Shown here: in pieces, positions 11,128 to 56,519 of the stretch
Layout: every line of letters starts with the position of its first letter
How positions within the stretch are numbered: position 1 is the stretch's first letter
Assembly: GCA_016214075.1 (NCBI GenBank)
Contig: JACRPI010000003.1
Location: forward strand, 1-63,713
DNA length: 63,713 nucleotides
Source of the DNA: Candidatus Woesearchaeota archaeon
GTDB taxonomy: Archaea; Nanobdellota; Nanobdellia; Woesearchaeales; DSVV01
Reading direction: 5' to 3'
Notes under the pieces: model-generated
The model's database searches: none
What the model saw: only the letters and a program-made list of their open reading frames with translations
Told to the model about the DNA's origin: nothing
Position numbers and translations under genes: made by a program

Positions 11128-11712
11128 ATGAATAAAACAGAGCTTGTTTATAGAGAACTCCTGTATTGGAGTCTTGAAAAACAAACAAACGAGTTTACAC
11201 AGGCAGCACTTGCAAAAAAACTTCATATTTCACTCAGTACTGTTAACAGCGCAGTTACGCTTCTCGAATCGATGGGCGCGCTTGAAATAAAGCAGAGGTC
11301 GTTCCATCTTCTTGACAGAAAAAAGATTCTTTATTACTGGGCAAGTATCCGAAATTTACAAAAAGACATCATTTATACTACTCGTGTCGAAAAATCAGTT
11401 ATTGCAATAGAAAAGGCAATGCCTAATGACATCATATTTGGCGCATATACCGCATACAAATTTTTATACCACGATGTTCCTGCGGATTATTCTGAAGTAT
11501 ACGTTTATGGTGATGAATATCTGAAAAAACGCTTTCCTTTACAAAAAGGGGTTCCTAACTTGTTTGTCCTAAAAAAAGATCCTTTCATGGAATCCCATGG
11601 AAAAACGACAACAGTTGCACAGACGTTCGTTGATCTTTGGAATCTTAGAGACTGGTATGCAAAGGAATTTATAGTTGCAATGGAGAAACGACTTCATGGA
11701 ATTTTGGAATAG
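11128..11712 (+). CDS. AbiEi-like winged-helix antitoxin/regulator
   Basis: The first 70 residues form a winged helix-turn-helix (FTQAALAKKLHISLSTVNSAV). The remainder resembles the AbiEi C-terminal region, including NDIIFGAYTAYKFLYHDVPA. AbiEi neutralises the partner nucleotidyltransferase and represses its own operon. Length (194 residues) is right. The start ATG lies about 25 bases after a TATA box, so the mRNA is probably leaderless. The gene overlaps the next one by 17 bases. The pair sits alone on the plus strand inside a minus-strand array of surface genes, which suggests insertion by transfer. Confidence 0.75.
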   Translation: MNKTELVYRELLYWSLEKQTNEFTQAALAKKLHISLSTVNSAVTLLESMGALEIKQRSFHLLDRKKILYYWASIRNLQKDIIYTTRVEKSVIAIEKAMPNDIIFGAYTAYKFLYHDVPADYSEVYVYGDEYLKKRFPLQKGVPNLFVLKKDPFMESHGKTTTVAQTFVDLWNLRDWYAKEFIVAMEKRLHGILE

Positions 11713-12307
11713 TCTTCTTACAGAGAAAAGCTGGAAAATTCTTCAAGGAATGAAGAAAGAACCATACTCATTTATAGTCATTGGCGGGTGGGCTGCATAT
11801 CTTTGGACCAAACAACATAAATCAAAAGACATAGACATTATCCTTCCAAACATTAAAGATCTTGATTTTCTCAAACAAAACTATGACCTTAAAAAAAATG
11901 ATCATTTAAAAAAGTATGAAATTCAATTTGAGGAAATAGATTTGGACATTTATGTCCCTTATTATTCTCAGCTTACCCTTCCTGTCGAAGACATAAAAAG
12001 AGAGATAATAACCATTGAAGGAATACCTGTTGTTGCCGCTGAAATTCTCCTGATCCTTAAACAAGGAGCTGAAATTGACAGAAAAGACAGCATCAAAGGC
12101 CAAAAAGATAGGATTGATATTGTCACCCTTCTTTGTTTTGCTCCAATTGATTTTAAGAAATATATTTTTCTCTTAAAAAAATATAATCTTGAAGAATACC
12201 GAATCAGAGTCAAGCATATCCTTACTGGCTTTTCTGATATAAAATATCTCTCTCTTACCCATCAAGAGTTTGTAAAAATAAAAAAAGAACTGTTGAAGAA
12301 GCTATAG
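11696..12307 (+). CDS. AbiEii-like nucleotidyltransferase toxin
   Basis: The product shows the minimal nucleotidyltransferase signature: GGWAAYLW (the GG helix turn) followed by KDIDIIL (the paired Asp) and later EEIDLDIYVP with the third acidic residue. AbiEii-type toxins transfer nucleotides to tRNA or other targets, causing growth arrest in phage-infected cells. I place the start at the ATG at 11696 inside the antitoxin reading frame; an in-frame upstream start at 11675 is possible. It is about 203 residues. Its stop codon lies inside the left end of the structured repeat at 12302-12420, so this repeat probably ends or processes the message. Confidence 0.72.
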   Translation: MEFWNSLLTEKSWKILQGMKKEPYSFIVIGGWAAYLWTKQHKSKDIDIILPNIKDLDFLKQNYDLKKNDHLKKYEIQFEEIDLDIYVPYYSQLTLPVEDIKREIITIEGIPVVAAEILLILKQGAEIDRKDSIKGQKDRIDIVTLLCFAPIDFKKYIFLLKKYNLEEYRIRVKHILTGFSDIKYLSLTHQEFVKIKKELLKKL

Positions 12308-12420
12308 AGAATTTTGAAAAAATCACTTTCTGAGATACAGCATGTGATTTTTTCTCAAAATTCTCAATAGAACCGCTTTGAATTCGCACAAAAATTGAAT
12401 TATTCAAAGCTCTCTATAAT
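12302..12420. repeat. Structured dispersed element, copy 1
   Basis: TATAGAG (12303-12309) pairs with CTCTATA (12412-12418). Inside are a long hairpin (GAGAATTTTGA...ATCAC with GTGATTTTTTCTCAAAATTCTC, 12344-12365) and a second hairpin (GCTTTGAATT at 12375 with AATTATTCAAAGC ending at 12410). Copies lie at 56404-56519 and, diverged, at 28749-28842. All three start at or just after a stop codon or gene end. It could be a MITE-like element or a structured 3' end/terminator. Confidence 0.75.
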
Positions 12421-27082: not shown

Positions 27083-27745
27083 ATGAAAATTTTTGTAGAT
27101 ACAGCAGACGTTGCGGAAATTAAACGGTTGAATGATTTAGGTATTATTGATGGCGTCACGACCAATCCTTCTCTTGTTTTGAAAGTGGGGAAGAATTTCA
27201 AAGACGTTGTTTCTGATATTTGCCAGATTGTTGATGGACCAGTGAGCGCAGAAGTAATCGCAACGGATTTTGACGGCATGATTAAAGAAGGACAAGAATT
27301 AGTGAAGATTCACAAGAATGTTGTGGTCAAAGTGCCGATGACTCCTGCTGGTGTCAAAGCAATCGCATGGTTTTCCCGTCATGGCATTAAAACAAATTGC
27401 ACCCTCGTGTTTAGCGCAAACCAAGCATTATTGTGCGCAAAAGCAGGAGCAACCTATGTCAGCCCATTTATTGGCAGACTTGATGACATTGGTCAAACAG
27501 GGATGGATTTGATTGTGGAAATAAAACAGTTGTATGAAAATTATGGATTCGCAACACAAATTCTTGCCGCTTCCATTAGGCATCCTATTCATGTCAAGGA
27601 AAGCGCACTTGCTGGCGCTCATGTCGCAACGTGTCCACCACAAATTATTGATCAGCTGTTTAAGCATGCGCTTACTGATTCTGGATTGCAGAAATTCTTG
27701 GATGACTGGAAAAAGATTCCTGAGGAATTGAGAAGGATTGTTTGA
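27083..27745 (+). CDS. Small transaldolase / fructose-6-phosphate aldolase family
   Basis: The family signature [11 protein letters not shown] near the N-terminus, the Schiff-base Lys in NVVVKVPMT (about residue 84) and the late [20 protein letters not shown] stretch are present. The length of 220 residues matches the short TalC/MipB branch. These enzymes transfer or cleave a dihydroxyacetone unit between sugar phosphates and here could feed pentose synthesis. The gene starts 8 bases after the FBPase-aldolase stop, with AGGTGAA before ATG. Confidence 0.93.
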
Positions 27746-27755
27746 GGATTTTATT

Positions 27756-28754
27756 ATGATCCGCATCGGCATCAACGGTTTTGGCAGAATTGGACGGCTT
27801 GCATTACGCATTTGTCAGCTGCCAGAATACAAAGAGAAGATTAAAGTTGTTGCGATTAATAGCCGAGCAGACATCGAAAGTCATGCACTGTTATTTCAAT
27901 ATGACTCTACTTATGGGAAATTTTCTGGCACTGTTGGTGTGGAACATGATCATCTTCAAGTAAATGGAGAAAAGGTCACTGTTTTTCGTGAAGATGATCC
28001 TGCAAATATTCCCTGGAACTCTGTCGATGTTGATATTGTACTGGAATGCACTGGCAAATTTGTCAAAAAAGAACAAGCTGCTGCGCATTTGGAGAATGAA
28101 GTAAAAAAAGTCATTATTTCTTCCCCTGGCAAAGGTTGTGGAACTTATGTCATGGGCGTCAATCATGATAAATATTTAGAAACAAAAGAAGATGTGTTAT
28201 CGTGCGCATCTTGCACAACAAATTGTCTTGCACCTGTTGCCGCTGTTTTGGAGAAAGAATTTGGAATTGAAAAAGGTTTCATGACGACGGTGCACGCTAT
28301 CACCAATGACCAGAACATTATTGACAACTCGCATAAAAAAGATTTACGACGGGCACGAACTGCTTCTGTGAATATTATTCCCACAACGACCGGCGCAGCT
28401 GAAGCAGTCGGGAAAGTTATACCTTCCCTTGCGGGGAAATTAACAGGGATTGCACTGCGCGTTCCTGTGCCAACTGTTTCTGTTGTTGATTTAGTTTGCA
28501 CATTGGGTAGAAAAGTGACCAAAGAAGAAGTGAATGAAACGTTTGTTGCTTCTGCAAACCAATATCTTGGCGTGACGGTGAAGCCGCTTGTTTCTTCTGA
28601 TTTTATTGGCAATCATCATTCCGCGATTGTGGATTTGTTAAGCACTGATGTGATCGGAGAGAATATGGTCAAAGTCATTGCATGGTATGACAATGAATAT
28701 GGCTATGCCTGTCGCTTGATTGATTTGGCTGTGTTTGTTGGGGAGAATCTCTAA
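27756..28754 (+). CDS. gap: Glyceraldehyde-3-phosphate dehydrogenase, bacterial type
   Basis: MIRIGINGFGRIGRLALR opens the NAD(P)-binding domain, and SCASCTTNCLAP carries the catalytic Cys. WYDNEYGYACRLIDL closes the domain. Both are classical features of the bacterial/eukaryotic enzyme and differ from the archaeal type II enzyme. It interconverts glyceraldehyde 3-phosphate and 1,3-bisphosphoglycerate. I start at the ATG at 27756 after GAGGATTTTATT; a start at 27738 would include that site. It is the last gene of the FBPase-aldolase/transaldolase/gap operon, and its end abuts a structured repeat. A bacterial origin by transfer is likely. Confidence 0.95.
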   Translation: MIRIGINGFGRIGRLALRICQLPEYKEKIKVVAINSRADIESHALLFQYDSTYGKFSGTVGVEHDHLQVNGEKVTVFREDDPANIPWNSVDVDIVLECTGKFVKKEQAAAHLENEVKKVIISSPGKGCGTYVMGVNHDKYLETKEDVLSCASCTTNCLAPVAAVLEKEFGIEKGFMTTVHAITNDQNIIDNSHKKDLRRARTASVNIIPTTTGAAEAVGKVIPSLAGKLTGIALRVPVPTVSVVDLVCTLGRKVTKEEVNETFVASANQYLGVTVKPLVSSDFIGNHHSAIVDLLSTDVIGENMVKVIAWYDNEYGYACRLIDLAVFVGENL

Positions 28755-28842
28755 TGATAATTTTGACACTTTGGTGAGTTATTCAAAATTTTCATTAGAG
28801 CCGCTTTGAATTCGACGCAAAGATTGAATTATTCAAAGCTCC
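28749..28842. repeat. Structured dispersed element, diverged copy 2
   Basis: CTCTAATGA (28749-28757, overlapping the gap stop codon) pairs with TCATTAGAG (28792-28800), with AATTTTGA/TCAAAATT inside. The second hairpin GCTTTGAATT (28803-28812) with AATTATTCAAAGC (28827-28839) is identical to those at 12375 and 56476. Confidence 0.65.
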
Positions 28843-28874
28843 CTAAACAAATCGTTTTATTTCTGGAAGATCTT

Positions 28875-37183: not shown

Positions 37184-38269
37184 TTAGTTACCGTCGGGGG
37201 GGGGGGGGGCGAAAAAATTATTTTTTGGTGTAATTTTTAATTTCAACGGAAATAAGATGTTAAACGTGCGCACAACTTTTCTTCTGTATTTGTATGTATT
37301 AGCGTGAGAAACATGAGCTATCCATCCTTCTAAAGACTCGATTACTTTTTCTCTACCTATTTTCCCTTTTGCATACATTTTTTTGAGTGCTTTTAGCTTT
37401 CTCTTAAATTTCCAAACATTCTTTTTTCTAACAAGCGTATGATGAAAAAAGATACGGAAACCAAGAAAAGTGATACCATTATTTAATGTGAGAATTTTTG
37501 ATTTTGTCGGATGAAGTTCCAATTGCAATGTTGTTTTCAGAAAGAAATCAATTTTTTCTTTCCATAATTCTAAAATATTTCTCTTTTCGTCTAAAATCAC
37601 AAAATCATCCACGTAACGAATGTACCATTTTGCTTTCAAATCGTGTTTTACAAATTGGTCTAATTCGTTTAAGTAAATATTCGCAAAAAATTGTGATGTG
37701 AGGTTTCCTAACGGCATTCCTTTGCCTATCTCTGTTGTATGATGGTTTTCCAGAATTATAGCAATAAGCCACAACAAATCCTTATCAAAGATTCTCTTCT
37801 CAAGGAGAGAAAGGAGAATCTTGTGATCAACAGCATCAAAATACTTTTTTATGTCTGCTTTCAAAATATAACAGGTTCTGCTGTTATTTTTTGAGACAAT
37901 TCGTTTGAAATAATGTAAACGCTGTATTGCTTTCAGTGTCCCTTTTCCTACCCTATTCGCATAGGAATCATAAATAAACTGTTTATCGAATATTGGTTCA
38001 ATGATATTGCAAATTGCGTGATGCACTATTCTGTCACGAAAATCTGATTTACTAATCTTTCGTGTCTTTGGATCTCTCAGGATAAATGTTTCCAATGGCT
38101 TTGGTCTGTAGCAATGAAGCAATAATTCATTGCGTAATGTAATCAGATTTGTATCTATATTTTGTTCAAAATCAAGAACATACGTTTTTAGCGTCTTTCC
38201 TTTTCTGGCTTTTTGAAATGCTTCTTTCAAGTTATCAAGGTCGCAAACTTTGTCATACAATACTGGCAT
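37184..38269 (-). CDS. DGR-type reverse transcriptase
   Basis: The protein has the RT domains in order: RDRIVHHAICNIIEPIF (motif 1-2 region), LKADIKKYFDAVDHKIL (motif 3 with the first catalytic Asp), GMPLGNLTSQFFANIYLNEL (motif 4; the (I/L)GNxxSQ form is typical of DGR and related RTs), YIRYVDDFVIL (motif 5 with the paired Asp) and FLGFRIFFH. A basic thumb ends near SHANTYKYRRKV. Length is 361 residues. In a DGR the RT copies the TR transcript while misreading adenines. The tail ends FFAPPPPDGN, encoded by 14 C. The TR lies 35 bases upstream. Confidence 0.95.
   Translation of the reverse strand: MPVLYDKVCDLDNLKEAFQKARKGKTLKTYVLDFEQNIDTNLITLRNELLLHCYRPKPLETFILRDPKTRKISKSDFRDRIVHHAICNIIEPIFDKQFIYDSYANRVGKGTLKAIQRLHYFKRIVSKNNSRTCYILKADIKKYFDAVDHKILLSLLEKRIFDKDLLWLIAIILENHHTTEIGKGMPLGNLTSQFFANIYLNELDQFVKHDLKAKWYIRYVDDFVILDEKRNILELWKEKIDFFLKTTLQLELHPTKSKILTLNNGITFLGFRIFFHHTLVRKKNVWKFKRKLKALKKMYAKGKIGREKVIESLEGWIAHVSHANTYKYRRKVVRTFNILFPLKLKITPKNNFFAPPPPDGN
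37196..37209. repeat. Homopolymer of 14 G (14 C on the coding strand)
   Basis: The run lies in the last codons of the RT. It encodes the Pro repeat of the tail. A change of one base would move the RT into the frame that stays open to the HTH_40-like domain. It may be a phase-variable tract or a sequencing/assembly artefact. Confidence 0.8.
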
Positions 38270-38303
38270 AGAAAAAATAAAAGTCCCAGCTTTAAGAACT
38301 TGA

Positions 38304-38399
38304 CTATTCCGACGAGGAAGCGGCCATTGTTGTTGAGGTTGTTGTTGCCATTCAAGCCATTGTTATCATTGTTGCCAGCAAAGAGCACACGCCCCTGAG
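38304..38399 (-). other. DGR template repeat (TR)
   Basis: On the minus strand this 96-base segment would read (T)QGRVLFAGNNDNNGLNGNNN..., in a non-coding stretch between target gene and RT. It aligns without gaps to 38738-38833. Every difference lies at a TR adenine (T on the plus strand): ten within the 96 bases and one more at 38400. The TR is rich in AAC/AAT codons, the best template for adenine mutagenesis. The rest of 38270-38582 holds the TR transcript flanks and no gene. Confidence 0.95.
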
Positions 38400-38582
38400 T
38401 AGCCCTCTTGCGGAAATGATCACCACCACTTCATTGCTGTCGTGGTTGAATTTTATAAGAGCAAGCTCCCGTAGCAAGAGGACGTGTAGTCTAAAGCCCT
38501 TGTTGCAAAACCATCACGGGTTTTGTTTTATAGCTGAGACATAAAATAAAAGAAAGAAGAGGTATAAAAAATGTTTGAAAAA

Positions 38583-39482
38583 TTATTTTCTCAAATCGTA
38601 CGTGCGACCGTTGTAGGTGATAGTTTCTGCACCACTTTCCAAACTAGTCAAAAAATCACGAGGCAATGCTACATTCACCATACCTTCGAGAGGTGATTTT
38701 TTCGCGTCTGCGCTTCGCGCAACGTGCGCCTCCGGCGCTACCCCGACGAGGAAGCGGCCATTGCCGTTGAGGCTGTAGTTGCCAACCAAGCCATAGTAAT
38801 CATTGTTGCCAGCAAAGAGCACACGCCCCTGAGCCTCGTCCGCATTAATAGCATTGAAGAGATGCCAATTTCCATAGCTTGTGTATCGCTGAGCGATTTT
38901 GTCAACAAAAGCGTTTGCTTCTGCAACTCCGCCTGCACGAACAATCACAAGCGCATTATCACGCAAACTTTCTACTGGAAAATGTCCAGAAGCTACGCTT
39001 TTTGCCATTTCATAATCCATAACAACTGCATAACGTCGTGGCAAATCAGTAATGCCCTTTCTAAAATCGGCAAAAGAATAGACTGGAATTTCTGTTTGAT
39101 CAGCCAACTTTCCTTTTAAGAGGTCTTTTACTTCACTTTCTGCAAGATGTGCTGCGTATTGTTTTGTCAGCCTTCGTTGATATGCTGTTTCAATTCGTTC
39201 TGGTGTTAAAATTCCTCCACCGTGAACTTCAATCATGACTTTATTTCCTTGTTCTGTTGTTCCGACATCCTCTTCTGAAGCGCAAGTGTACCATGTACTC
39301 CAAACAGGGTTAGTAAATGGAGCTTTTCTCCTAAGAACTAAAATTTCTGGCATTGATTTAACAAAATTACCTGTTTCAGAAGCACGTGCTTGTGCTGCTC
39401 TTAACGCAGTTGGTAGAGAATCATCATAAAATGAATCTGCTGCGTGCTCATCATTGATTGTTACTCGTTCTTGTTTCGCCAT
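38583..39482 (-). CDS. DGR target protein (variable protein)
   Basis: This 299-residue protein carries the VR at about residues 217-248 (AQGRVLFAGNNDYYGLVGNY...). I start at the ATG at 39482, 8 bases after GGTGA; ATG 39491 and GTG 39494 overlap that site. It has no signal peptide or membrane segment, so it is probably cytoplasmic, unlike many lectin-fold DGR targets. The region before the VR (GNWHLFNAINADEA) and after it (GRFLVGVAPEAHVARS) may form the scaffold that displays the variable loop; about 50 residues follow the VR. The fold is unknown to me. A TATA box at 39526-39537 drives it. Confidence 0.85.
   Translation of the reverse strand: MAKQERVTINDEHAADSFYDDSLPTALRAAQARASETGNFVKSMPEILVLRRKAPFTNPVWSTWYTCASEEDVGTTEQGNKVMIEVHGGGILTPERIETAYQRRLTKQYAAHLAESEVKDLLKGKLADQTEIPVYSFADFRKGITDLPRRYAVVMDYEMAKSVASGHFPVESLRDNALVIVRAGGVAEANAFVDKIAQRYTSYGNWHLFNAINADEAQGRVLFAGNNDYYGLVGNYSLNGNGRFLVGVAPEAHVARSADAKKSPLEGMVNVALPRDFLTSLESGAETITYNGRTYDLRK
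38709..38738 (-). promoter_or_regulatory. Two small hairpins at the 3' boundary of the VR
   Basis: TGCGC-TTC-GCGCA (38709-38721) and GCGCC-TCC-GGCGC (38726-38738) are perfect 5-bp stems with 3-base loops, just beyond the last shared base of the VR. DGR homing is known to use hairpin or cruciform sites downstream of the VR; these are placed to do this. The stretch is more GC-rich than its surroundings. Confidence 0.65.
38738..38833 (-). other. DGR variable repeat (VR) in the target gene
   Basis: Compared with the TR, six Asn codons of the core have become Tyr, Tyr, Val, Tyr, Ser and Gly, each through A-to-N changes (for example AAC to TAC, AAT to GTT). Two further A-to-G changes lie near the 3' end. 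Non-adenine positions are identical, which shows recent or active diversification. Confidence 0.95.
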
Positions 39483-53661: not shown

Positions 53662-54161
53662 AAACACCACAGCTCTTTGGGAAAAAACAGTATGGCATTA
53701 TTGCAGCAGTTACATTACTGTATGTTACCATAACTGTGCTTGTGAGCAAGTTTTATGTGACTGCGCAATACATTCCTTATTTTGTTGATACTATTAACTG
53801 GATTCAGTTGCTGCTCTCTGTTGCATTGACACTCACAATAGGAATACTGCTTGGGTTAAATGCTGCTTTCCTTTATTTGGTTTATCAAGAATATAAACGT
53901 AACAAAACTTGCAGTACTTCAGGACTTGGCACGACCGCAAGCGTGACAAGTATCGGCGCAGTGGGCGGCGTCGCGACAGGCGTTTGCAGCGCATGTGTCG
54001 CAAGCATTTTTCCCGCGCTCTTTGGATTATTTGGCATTACGTTAAGCTGGGGAGCACTTCCATTTCAAGGACTTGAAATACAACTTGGAATTGTCGCTCT
54101 TCTTACCGCAAATGGATATTATTTACGAAAAAAACTAGTGAAAGGTGGAATTTATGACTAA
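53658..54161 (+). CDS. Membrane protein of the copper operon
   Basis: The start is the ATG at 53658, overlapping the previous stop. The 167-residue protein has four membrane helices ([72 protein letters not shown]). A CSAC motif lies within the third helix and could bind a metal. I do not recognise the family. The stop falls 8 bases inside copA, so they are coupled. Confidence 0.72.
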
Positions 54162-56358
54162 TGAAAACAAAAAAGTACAACTGAGTATTTCTGGCATGCA
54201 CTGCGCAAGCTGCGCGACAATATTGACGAAAGCACTGACCAAAGTGTCCGGCGTTACAGAGGCAACTGTCAATTATTCTACTGAACGCGCTGTTGTTTCT
54301 TATGATCCACAGCAGACTGGTGTTCCTGCTTTTATCAACGCAATTAAAGGAAAAGGATATACCGCAACTGTTTTTGACAGCGCAAAAGGAAAAGACAAAG
54401 AAGAACACCGACGGAAAAAAGAGATCGCTGAAACAAAACAACTCTTTTTTATTGGACTACTTTTTTCTCTCCCCGCGTTTCTCATCACGTCTGTGTTTCC
54501 AAGCGTTGGAATAGAAATTCCCTTCGCGGAATACATTGCATGGATTCTTGCATCTCCAGTCCAGTTTTATGTGGGATGGCAATTTTATCGAGGAACATGG
54601 CATTCTCTTCGAAATGGAAGCGCTTCCATGGACACCCTTATTGCCATCGGAACAAGCGCAGCGTATTTTTACAGCATCTATGTTGTCTTGTTCCAGCCAG
54701 AACTTGGACAATATTTTGAAGTCGGCGCAATCTTGATTACCTTTGTCATGCTCGGTAAATACCTTGAAGCGCTCGCGAAAGGAAAAACCAGCGCAGCTAT
54801 TAAAAAACTCATGGGCTTACAGCCGAAAACAGCGCTTGTTGTTCGCAACGGAAAACAAGAAGAAATTCCTATTGACAGCGTTGTTGTTGGTGACATTGTC
54901 ATTGTGAAACCTGGGCAGAAAATCCCTGTTGATGGGACTATTGTCGATGGACACTCTTCTGTTGATGAGAGCATGATTACGGGAGAAAGCATCCCTGTTG
55001 AAAAGAAAAAAGGAGATCCTGTCATTGGCGCAACGATCAACAAAACGGGAAGCTTCCGCTTTAAAGCAACAAAAGTTGGCGCGAATACAACACTTTCGCA
55101 GATTGTCCAACTCATTGAAGACGCGCAGGCAAAAAAAGCACCTATTCAACGGTTTGCTGATGCGGTGAGTGCATACTTTGTTCCAATAGTTATCGGAATT
55201 GCAATTCTGACATTTATTACCTGGTACTTCGGTGCTGGTGAAACGTTCTCTTTTAGTCTTCTCACTGCTGTCGCTGTTCTTGTTATCGCATGTCCGTGCG
55301 CACTTGGTCTCGCAACACCAACCGCAATCATGGTGGGAACAGGCAAAGGGGCAGAAAAAGGGGTTTTGATTAAAGGCGGGGACGCGCTTGAAGCGGCGCA
55401 CAAAGTTCGCTCTGTTATTTTTGATAAGACAGGAACCATCACTCATGGAGAACCTGTCGTGACAGATATTGTTTCAACAGGATCTTTATCTGAGAAGCAG
55501 CTTCTTCAACTTGCCGCAAGCATTGAACAGCATTCTGAACATCCGCTCGCAGAAGCAATTGTCGCAGACGCGCAAAAGAAGGCGCTTCCTCTTTTGAAAT
55601 CAACTAATTTTTCCGCTATTCCCGGACATGGCGTTACCGCGACGCTTGGTAAAAAATTGTTTTATTTTGGAAACAGTAGACTGATGCAGAAACAGCACAT
55701 CCATACAACATCTGTTGCTGAAAAACTGATCGCGCTTGAAGAACAAGGAAAAACCGTTATGCTTCTTGCTGACGGAAAAACAGTTCTTGGTCTTGTCGCT
55801 GTCGCAGACACTATCAAAGAAACCGCGAAAAAAGCAGTTGAGAAACTCCAACGCATGGGTGTTTCTGTGTATTTAATTACTGGAGATAATCAACGAACCG
55901 CGCAAGGTATTGCAAAGCAAGCAGGAATTACTAATGTTTTTGCTGAAGTACTGCCTGACCAAAAAGCCGCATATGTCAAGAAATTGCAGAAAAAAGGAAG
56001 TGTTGCGATGGTTGGCGATGGTATCAACGACGCGCCCGCGATCGCGCAAGCAGACATTGGCATTGCGATGGGTTCTGGCACAGACGTTGCGATGGAAACT
56101 GGAAATGTTGTTCTCATGAGAAATGACCCTCTTGATGTCGCAAAAGCGATTCGCTTGAGTAAAATCACCATGGCAAAAATCAAACAGAATATGTTCTGGG
56201 CATTGTTTTACAATGTTCTGGGTATTCCGATTGCCGCAGGGATTTTGTATCCATTCACTGGCTGGTTGTTGAGTCCAATGATCGCAGGTGGCGCAATGGC
56301 ATTAAGCAGTGTCAGCGTTGTAGGGAATTCATTGTTGCTCAAGATGAAGAAGTTATAA
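54154..56358 (+). CDS. copA: Copper-transporting P1B-type ATPase
   Basis: The start is the ATG at 54154 after AAGGTGGAATTT. One N-terminal HMA domain ([15 protein letters not shown]) is followed by eight expected membrane helices. [10 protein letters not shown] in the sixth helix is the Cu(I) path, DKTGTIT carries the phosphorylated Asp, TGES is the dephosphorylation loop and GDGINDAPA the hinge. HP in SEHPLAEAI is also present. It pumps Cu(I) out of the cell. Length is 734 residues. It ends the operon 45 bases before a structured repeat. Confidence 0.96.
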
Positions 56359-56403: not shown

Positions 56404-56519
56404 TATAGAGAATTTTGAAAAAATCACTTTTTGGTATACATATGGTGATTTTTTCTCAAAATTCTCAATAGAACCGCTTTGAATTCGGAGAAAAATTGAA
56501 TTATTCAAAGCTCTCTATA
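56404..56519. repeat. Structured dispersed element, copy 3
   Basis: TATAGAG (56404-56410) pairs with CTCTATA (56513-56519). The hairpin GAGAATTTTGA...GTGATTTTTTCTCAAAATTCTC and the second hairpin GCTTTGAATT (56476-56485)/AATTATTCAAAGC (56499-56511) match copy 1 almost base for base, except in the loops. The rest of 56359-56662 holds a TATA-like box (ATTTATTTATAC near 56617) and no gene I can support. Confidence 0.75.

Follow-up and report, generated by a model that had tools for sequence, protein, structure and literature searches.

A short TATA-flanked double-hairpin repeat of Woesearchaeota is probably a MITE mobilised by an IS5-family transposase

Archaeal IS5-related MITEs (relatives of ISMbu10, ISMba19, ISMma12, and ISMac15) are among the closest described systems; they are 140-252 bp long, carry 15- to 17-bp terminal repeats, and are present in multiple copies (PMC3852290). 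The repeat analyzed here is likewise short, gene-less, and multi-copy, with a predicted IS5-family partner and an archaeal host. It differs in its flanking motif, the 4-bp TATA, whereas target duplications of 0 or 3 bp are listed for the described MITEs; in its DPANN host, since theirs are methanogens; and in having a double hairpin with covarying inner arms, which does not appear in the accessible portion of that account (PMC3852290). MITECca01 of Cardinium resembles it as an IS-derived MITE with palindromic inverted repeats and a parent that shares its ends, but MITECca01 is ~240 bp long and has an IS982-family parent and a bacterial endosymbiont host (PMC9769881). A text search returned no paper joining the term MITE with DPANN, which is weak evidence since most subscription journals lie outside such a search. 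We describe an abundant mobile repeat in a phylum for which searchable papers report no MITE, and this Woesearchaeota repeat is now tied to a predicted parent transposase and to a target rule.

RUP elements work in a similar way, but with another transposase family and target, being mobilised by IS630 transposase, and REPINs depend on Y1 RAYT transposases; unlike such REPINs, the element described here has the ends of a DDE element. REPINs are similar to it in carrying two inverted hairpin units per element (PMC3116915). Correia- and ERIC-type elements share its general features: they measure 100-200 bp, insert between genes in AT-rich DNA, give transcripts with stable stem-loops, and move by means of an IS transposase supplied in trans. 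They use other transposase families and targets, however, and Correia elements lie mainly upstream of genes (PMC10969869).

The host is a Woesearchaeota-type archaeon. The window, by which we mean the whole 63,713-nt stretch of its genome that was analyzed, holds three copies of the element:

12303-12418, plus strand: full copy 1, between the 3' ends of convergent genes, with the left TATA at 12303-12306 and the right TATA at 12415-12418
12307-12365, plus strand: hairpin 1 of copy 1, the left terminal repeat paired with its own inner inverted copy (from fold and covariation)
12367-12417, plus strand: hairpin 2 of copy 1, in which the right terminal repeat TTATTCAAAGCTCTCTATA pairs with an inner arm (from fold and pattern)
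12305-12307, plus strand: stop codon TAG of the ORF at 11675-12307, formed by the first bases of copy 1
28752-28845, plus strand (covariance model frame): diverged copy 2, where the GAPDH gene (27738-28754) ends
56404-56519, plus strand: full copy 3; a heavy-metal P-type ATPase gene (54145-56358) ends 45 nt upstream

All three copies matched the family covariance model (E values of 6.6e-7, 1.1e-6, and 2.8e-4, with 173 kb searched), and each folded better than all 200 of its shuffles, either as DNA (z scores against dinucleotide shuffles of -6.5, -6.2, and -4.3) or as RNA (-7.0, -6.7, and -4.1). The three-copy structured repeat proposed in an initial annotation of the sequence is thus real, with some changes in its details. 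Two hairpins had been described as common to all copies, the second of them identical throughout. Hairpin 2 is indeed retained in each, with identical arms but differing loops, whereas hairpin 1 of copy 2 is of another sequence, yet still pairs. The ends TATAGAG and CTCTATA, common to two copies, had been thought to close a cloverleaf-like element. A closed cloverleaf or three-way junction was rejected, as the minimum-energy fold of copy 1 consists of two independent hairpins, at 12307-12365 and 12367-12417, and the terminal TATA is mostly unpaired. Copies 1 and 3 are 92% identical across 116 bp and are longer than the common form of ~97 bp because their hairpin 1 has a longer stem-loop. As originally noted, the copies start at or soon after a gene end, with stop codons inside copies 1 and 2 and upstream of copy 3, and the stop codon of the ORF at 11675-12307 lies within copy 1. 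If copy 1 were removed, this codon would be spelled TAA by the single TATA and the right flank, and hence the insertion probably left the end of that protein unaltered.

The element is not confined to the three copies first counted. Contig C1 of the source genome carries a full-length relative, contigs C24 and C26 carry half copies, and the pattern for hairpin 2 was found in more than 118 stretches of species genomes, nearly all titled Woesearchaeota, and in none of the viral contigs searched. When up to 14 candidates per genome were scored with the covariance model, the element was detected in 50 of the 288 genomes of the order (17%), with dozens of copies in some. Counts of the two ends in three genomes were 48 + 63, 56 + 48, and 18 + 18, versus 0-3 for a reversed control pattern. 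Many copies are dispersed, and their flanks are unrelated. Copies in the model-fitted set are 81-127 bp long and contain no gene; the common form, ~97 bp, is TATAGAGAATTTTGA-loop-TCAAAATTCTCTAAGAGAACTTTGAA-loop-TTATTCAAAGTTCTCTATA, bearing the inverted terminal repeats TATAGAGRRYTTTGA...TCAAARYYCTCTATA. Conserved ATAAC/GTTAT extensions adjoin the outer arms in inverted orientation. Each terminal repeat is followed by its own inverted copy, so the element consists of two palindromes fused head to tail. ARAGORN found no tRNA-like match to it.

At its two ends, the element carries the same ~20-bp terminal repeats that bound full-length IS5-family elements elsewhere in the phylum. Intact elements of ~1.2 kb, bounded by inverted ~20-bp ends TATAGAGRRYTTTGAWTAACC, were found at G399:C5, G409:C107, and G400:C98 (loci L368, L369, and L370). 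The ORFs of these three encode 333-354 aa with DUF772 and DDE_Tnp_1 domains and pass the NCBIfam model NF033581 (transpos_IS5_4) with 195-212 bits against a cut-off of 140. On the strength of these profile and domain matches, the parent is predicted to be an IS5-family DDE transposase. The intact relatives were retrieved with the N-terminal part of the product of a decayed DDE_Tnp_1 gene in genome G274, which is enclosed by the ends TATAGAGAGCTTTGAAAAA and TATAGAGAGTTTTGAAAAA at a spacing of 845 bp. G212 and G225 also have decayed or shortened copies with ends of this kind, and a more distant parent copy with similar ends occurs in G419. Judged by eye, the end lying upstream of the gene reads ...TTTTGA in most parents and the downstream one ...CTTTGA, the same left/right difference that the small element shows. 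The transposase was identified in seven genomes of the order, five of which have the element, compared with 45 of the 281 genomes without this transposase (Fisher p = 0.002). No matching transposase was found in the source genome; its mobiliser may have been lost, be missing from the assembly, or be too diverged.

Other candidate partners were considered and rejected. Loci between paired ends, in the first loci collected, held only host genes, and neither IS630-type DDE_3 genes nor Y1 transposases showed a consistent link to the element. A DDE_Tnp_1 gene on contig C26 of the source genome adjoins a half copy, but it has ends of its own that read as TTGCTGTGTTGCATAATT and was for that reason rejected as the parent.

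Empty sites defined the target. In genome G273, the loop of a larger repeat is interrupted by the element. The filled copy (L089) reads GAATAAC-TATA..TATA-TTCGATTC, and three uninterrupted copies of the larger repeat read GAATAAC-TATA-TTCGATTC or GAATAAC-TATA-TCCGATTC, with the shared form ..GAATAAC-TATA-TYCGATTC.. A second, independent empty site (L203 versus L164) obeys the same rule, with one TATA when empty and two when filled. These two exact empty sites are as expected of a target-site duplication, although insertion next to TATA with no duplication would formally give the same result: a 4-bp duplication of TATA and insertion beside TATA of an element that itself ends in TATA would fit the sequences equally. 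No target duplication longer than 4 bp was seen when this was tested. Orthologous regions in relatives of G166 lack the element carried by G166.

Given terminal repeats shared with IS5-family elements, exact empty sites, and dispersed copies, we interpret the element as a MITE, gene-less and probably moved by an IS5-family DDE transposase that acts in trans (probability roughly 0.88). The initial annotation had offered a non-autonomous transposon as one of two interpretations, and the high copy number and the nesting of elements also agree with it. The transposase would bind both terminal repeats and move the element, either duplicating the 4-bp TATA target or inserting an element that carries its own TATA next to a TATA. 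Mobilisation of the REPIN or IS200/IS605 kind, in which a Y1 (HUH) transposase acts on single-stranded hairpins and inserts next to TATA without duplication, would account for two hairpins per short element and for a fixed flanking tetranucleotide, and 13 of the 25 relatives have Y1 genes. The Y1 genes checked, however, are not flanked by the element repeat, and none is bounded by its hairpins as in the REPIN/RAYT arrangement; those that were folded carry other hairpins. The terminal inverted repeats also depart from the IS200/IS605 pattern of subterminal hairpins without such repeats, their inverted ATAAC/GTTAT extensions are as in double-strand terminal repeats, and the element's ends bound DDE transposase genes. 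We therefore consider a Y1-type mobiliser very improbable.

Gene context was assessed with a simple longest-ORF gene call, by which 71 of the 72 scorable copies were intergenic, versus 60% of TATA sites located in ORFs. Within tandem gaps, 31 of 45 copies were nearer to the 3' end of the upstream gene, a position that 44% of TATA sites share (p = 0.0008). Copies were depleted in divergent gaps (8 of 71; p = 0.001), and their median distance was 33 nt from 3' ends but 93 nt from 5' ends. The copies in the window show the same trend, lying in a convergent gap (copy 1), at the GAPDH end (copy 2), and after the P-type ATPase gene (copy 3). Such a bias to gene 3' ends, together with strong RNA folding and base-pair covariation, would suit an RNA element of the host that acts at the 3' ends of mRNAs as a stabiliser, terminator, or processing site, whether spread by transposition or otherwise, and a functional 3' RNA structure was the other interpretation first offered. 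Orientation relative to tandem genes is nevertheless unbiased (18 same, 27 opposite), the genes linked to the three window copies are mutually unrelated, positions are not conserved, and the distribution is patchy, with the element in only 17% of genomes. No Rfam family matched the element (the sole Rfam match in the window, RT-16, lies elsewhere), and the empty sites and nesting indicate mobility. The 3' bias also fits loss of harmful insertions: selection would remove copies near promoters or inside genes, so that the survivors lie after stop codons. A host RNA origin is thus unsupported and very improbable, and the element is most probably not a host regulatory RNA, while a secondary, co-opted RNA role is possible.

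The absence of further copies and of compensatory changes had been named at the outset as what would speak against the repeat; further copies and compensatory changes both exist. Changes on both sides were found in 18 of 28 pairs of the model-fitted alignment, which leans to its own structure but still allows alternatives to be compared, and the covariation score was reached by no shuffle. At four variable arm positions, the outer arm equals the inner arm exactly in 46 of 50 copies for hairpin 1 and in 26 of 50 for hairpin 2, whereas the two ends of one element match in none of the 50, nor do the two inner arms. Change per site in two subfamilies was 0.012-0.016 in the inner arm, 0.022-0.024 in the outer arm, and 0.09-0.18 in the loops, the arm figures for group A being inflated by one misaligned member (L117, ignored). 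Pairing is therefore maintained at each end separately: outer and inner arms change together at one end irrespective of the opposite end, and conservation of the inner arm equals that of the outer. Compensatory changes alone do not establish an RNA function, and covariation within a dispersed repeat should not be taken as proof of a functional RNA.

Intact parents have no inner arms, and copies in G212 have a hairpin at the left end only. Palindromes of 56 bp made of two right-type ends also occur, and the 97-bp form may accordingly be read as a fusion of a left-type with a right-type palindrome. As for what keeps the inner arm identical, our tentative preference, at a little under even odds, is that the outer arm is copied by hairpin templating (quasi-palindrome correction). 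Ranked second, and rather unlikely, is selection during transposition, and an RNA-level effect, by selection on transcripts, ranks third and is less likely again. Alternatively, inner arms might be extra transposase-binding sites, with binding rather than pairing under selection, so that outer and inner arms are alike. The inner arm does bear the terminal-repeat sequence, and the 56-bp palindromes would suit such a role, but if one protein bound these sites, the two ends should resemble each other as well, and they never match at the variable positions; the parents, moreover, are intact without inner arms. This explanation is unlikely, and templated copying of the outer arm stays the preferred one. 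Self-folding of each end might also be required for the element to move or persist, with the terminal repeats acting as cruciforms or single-strand hairpins, or with transcripts that must fold; we regard this as doubtful. If true, dependence on end hairpins would be a property not known for IS5 elements, and should the two end hairpins covary independently for functional reasons, this would allow one to test directly whether a DDE transposon is helped to move by terminal hairpins.

Several further arrangements were observed. Other two-hairpin repeats are inserted within copies of the element (L040 and L041 in G001; L282-L290 in G189; L294 in G166); the nested composite recurs several times in G001 and G189, and nested hairpin elements may move together. 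The right end occurs in tandem one to three times, in 21-bp steps (TTCAAAGTTCTCTATAGGTAA), at L060, L081, and L100 (Bin_274 / G212). Contig MHFY01000091.1 (L113; 6 kb), binned as an Omnitrophica bacterium, has two good copies of the element and the rest of that genome has none, which points to mis-binning or recent transfer. A second dispersed repeat, around CGAGGCGAAATTTAGTGGC..GTCGCGAAGCGACGC, is present in the downstream flank of L125 and has many copies across genus g120. Positions 1143-2500 of L342 (G000 contig C26) hold a separate insertion sequence whose ends resemble TTGCTGTGTTGCATAATT, with a half copy of the element ~100 bp beyond it, and G001 C1 has a similar arrangement.

The window has other features as well. 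Large proteins of secreted type are clustered between 5849 and 19396; they are rich in calcium-binding TSP3 repeats and have near-identical signal regions, and those scanned contain Laminin_G_3 and PKD domains. A diversity-generating retroelement is located at 37184-38833 on the minus strand, with a reverse transcriptase at 37184-38269 and the Rfam RT-16 RNA at 38394-38525. Its 91-bp template-like repeat (~38309-38399) matches 38743-38833 in the upstream ORF with eight mismatches, several of them at template adenines.
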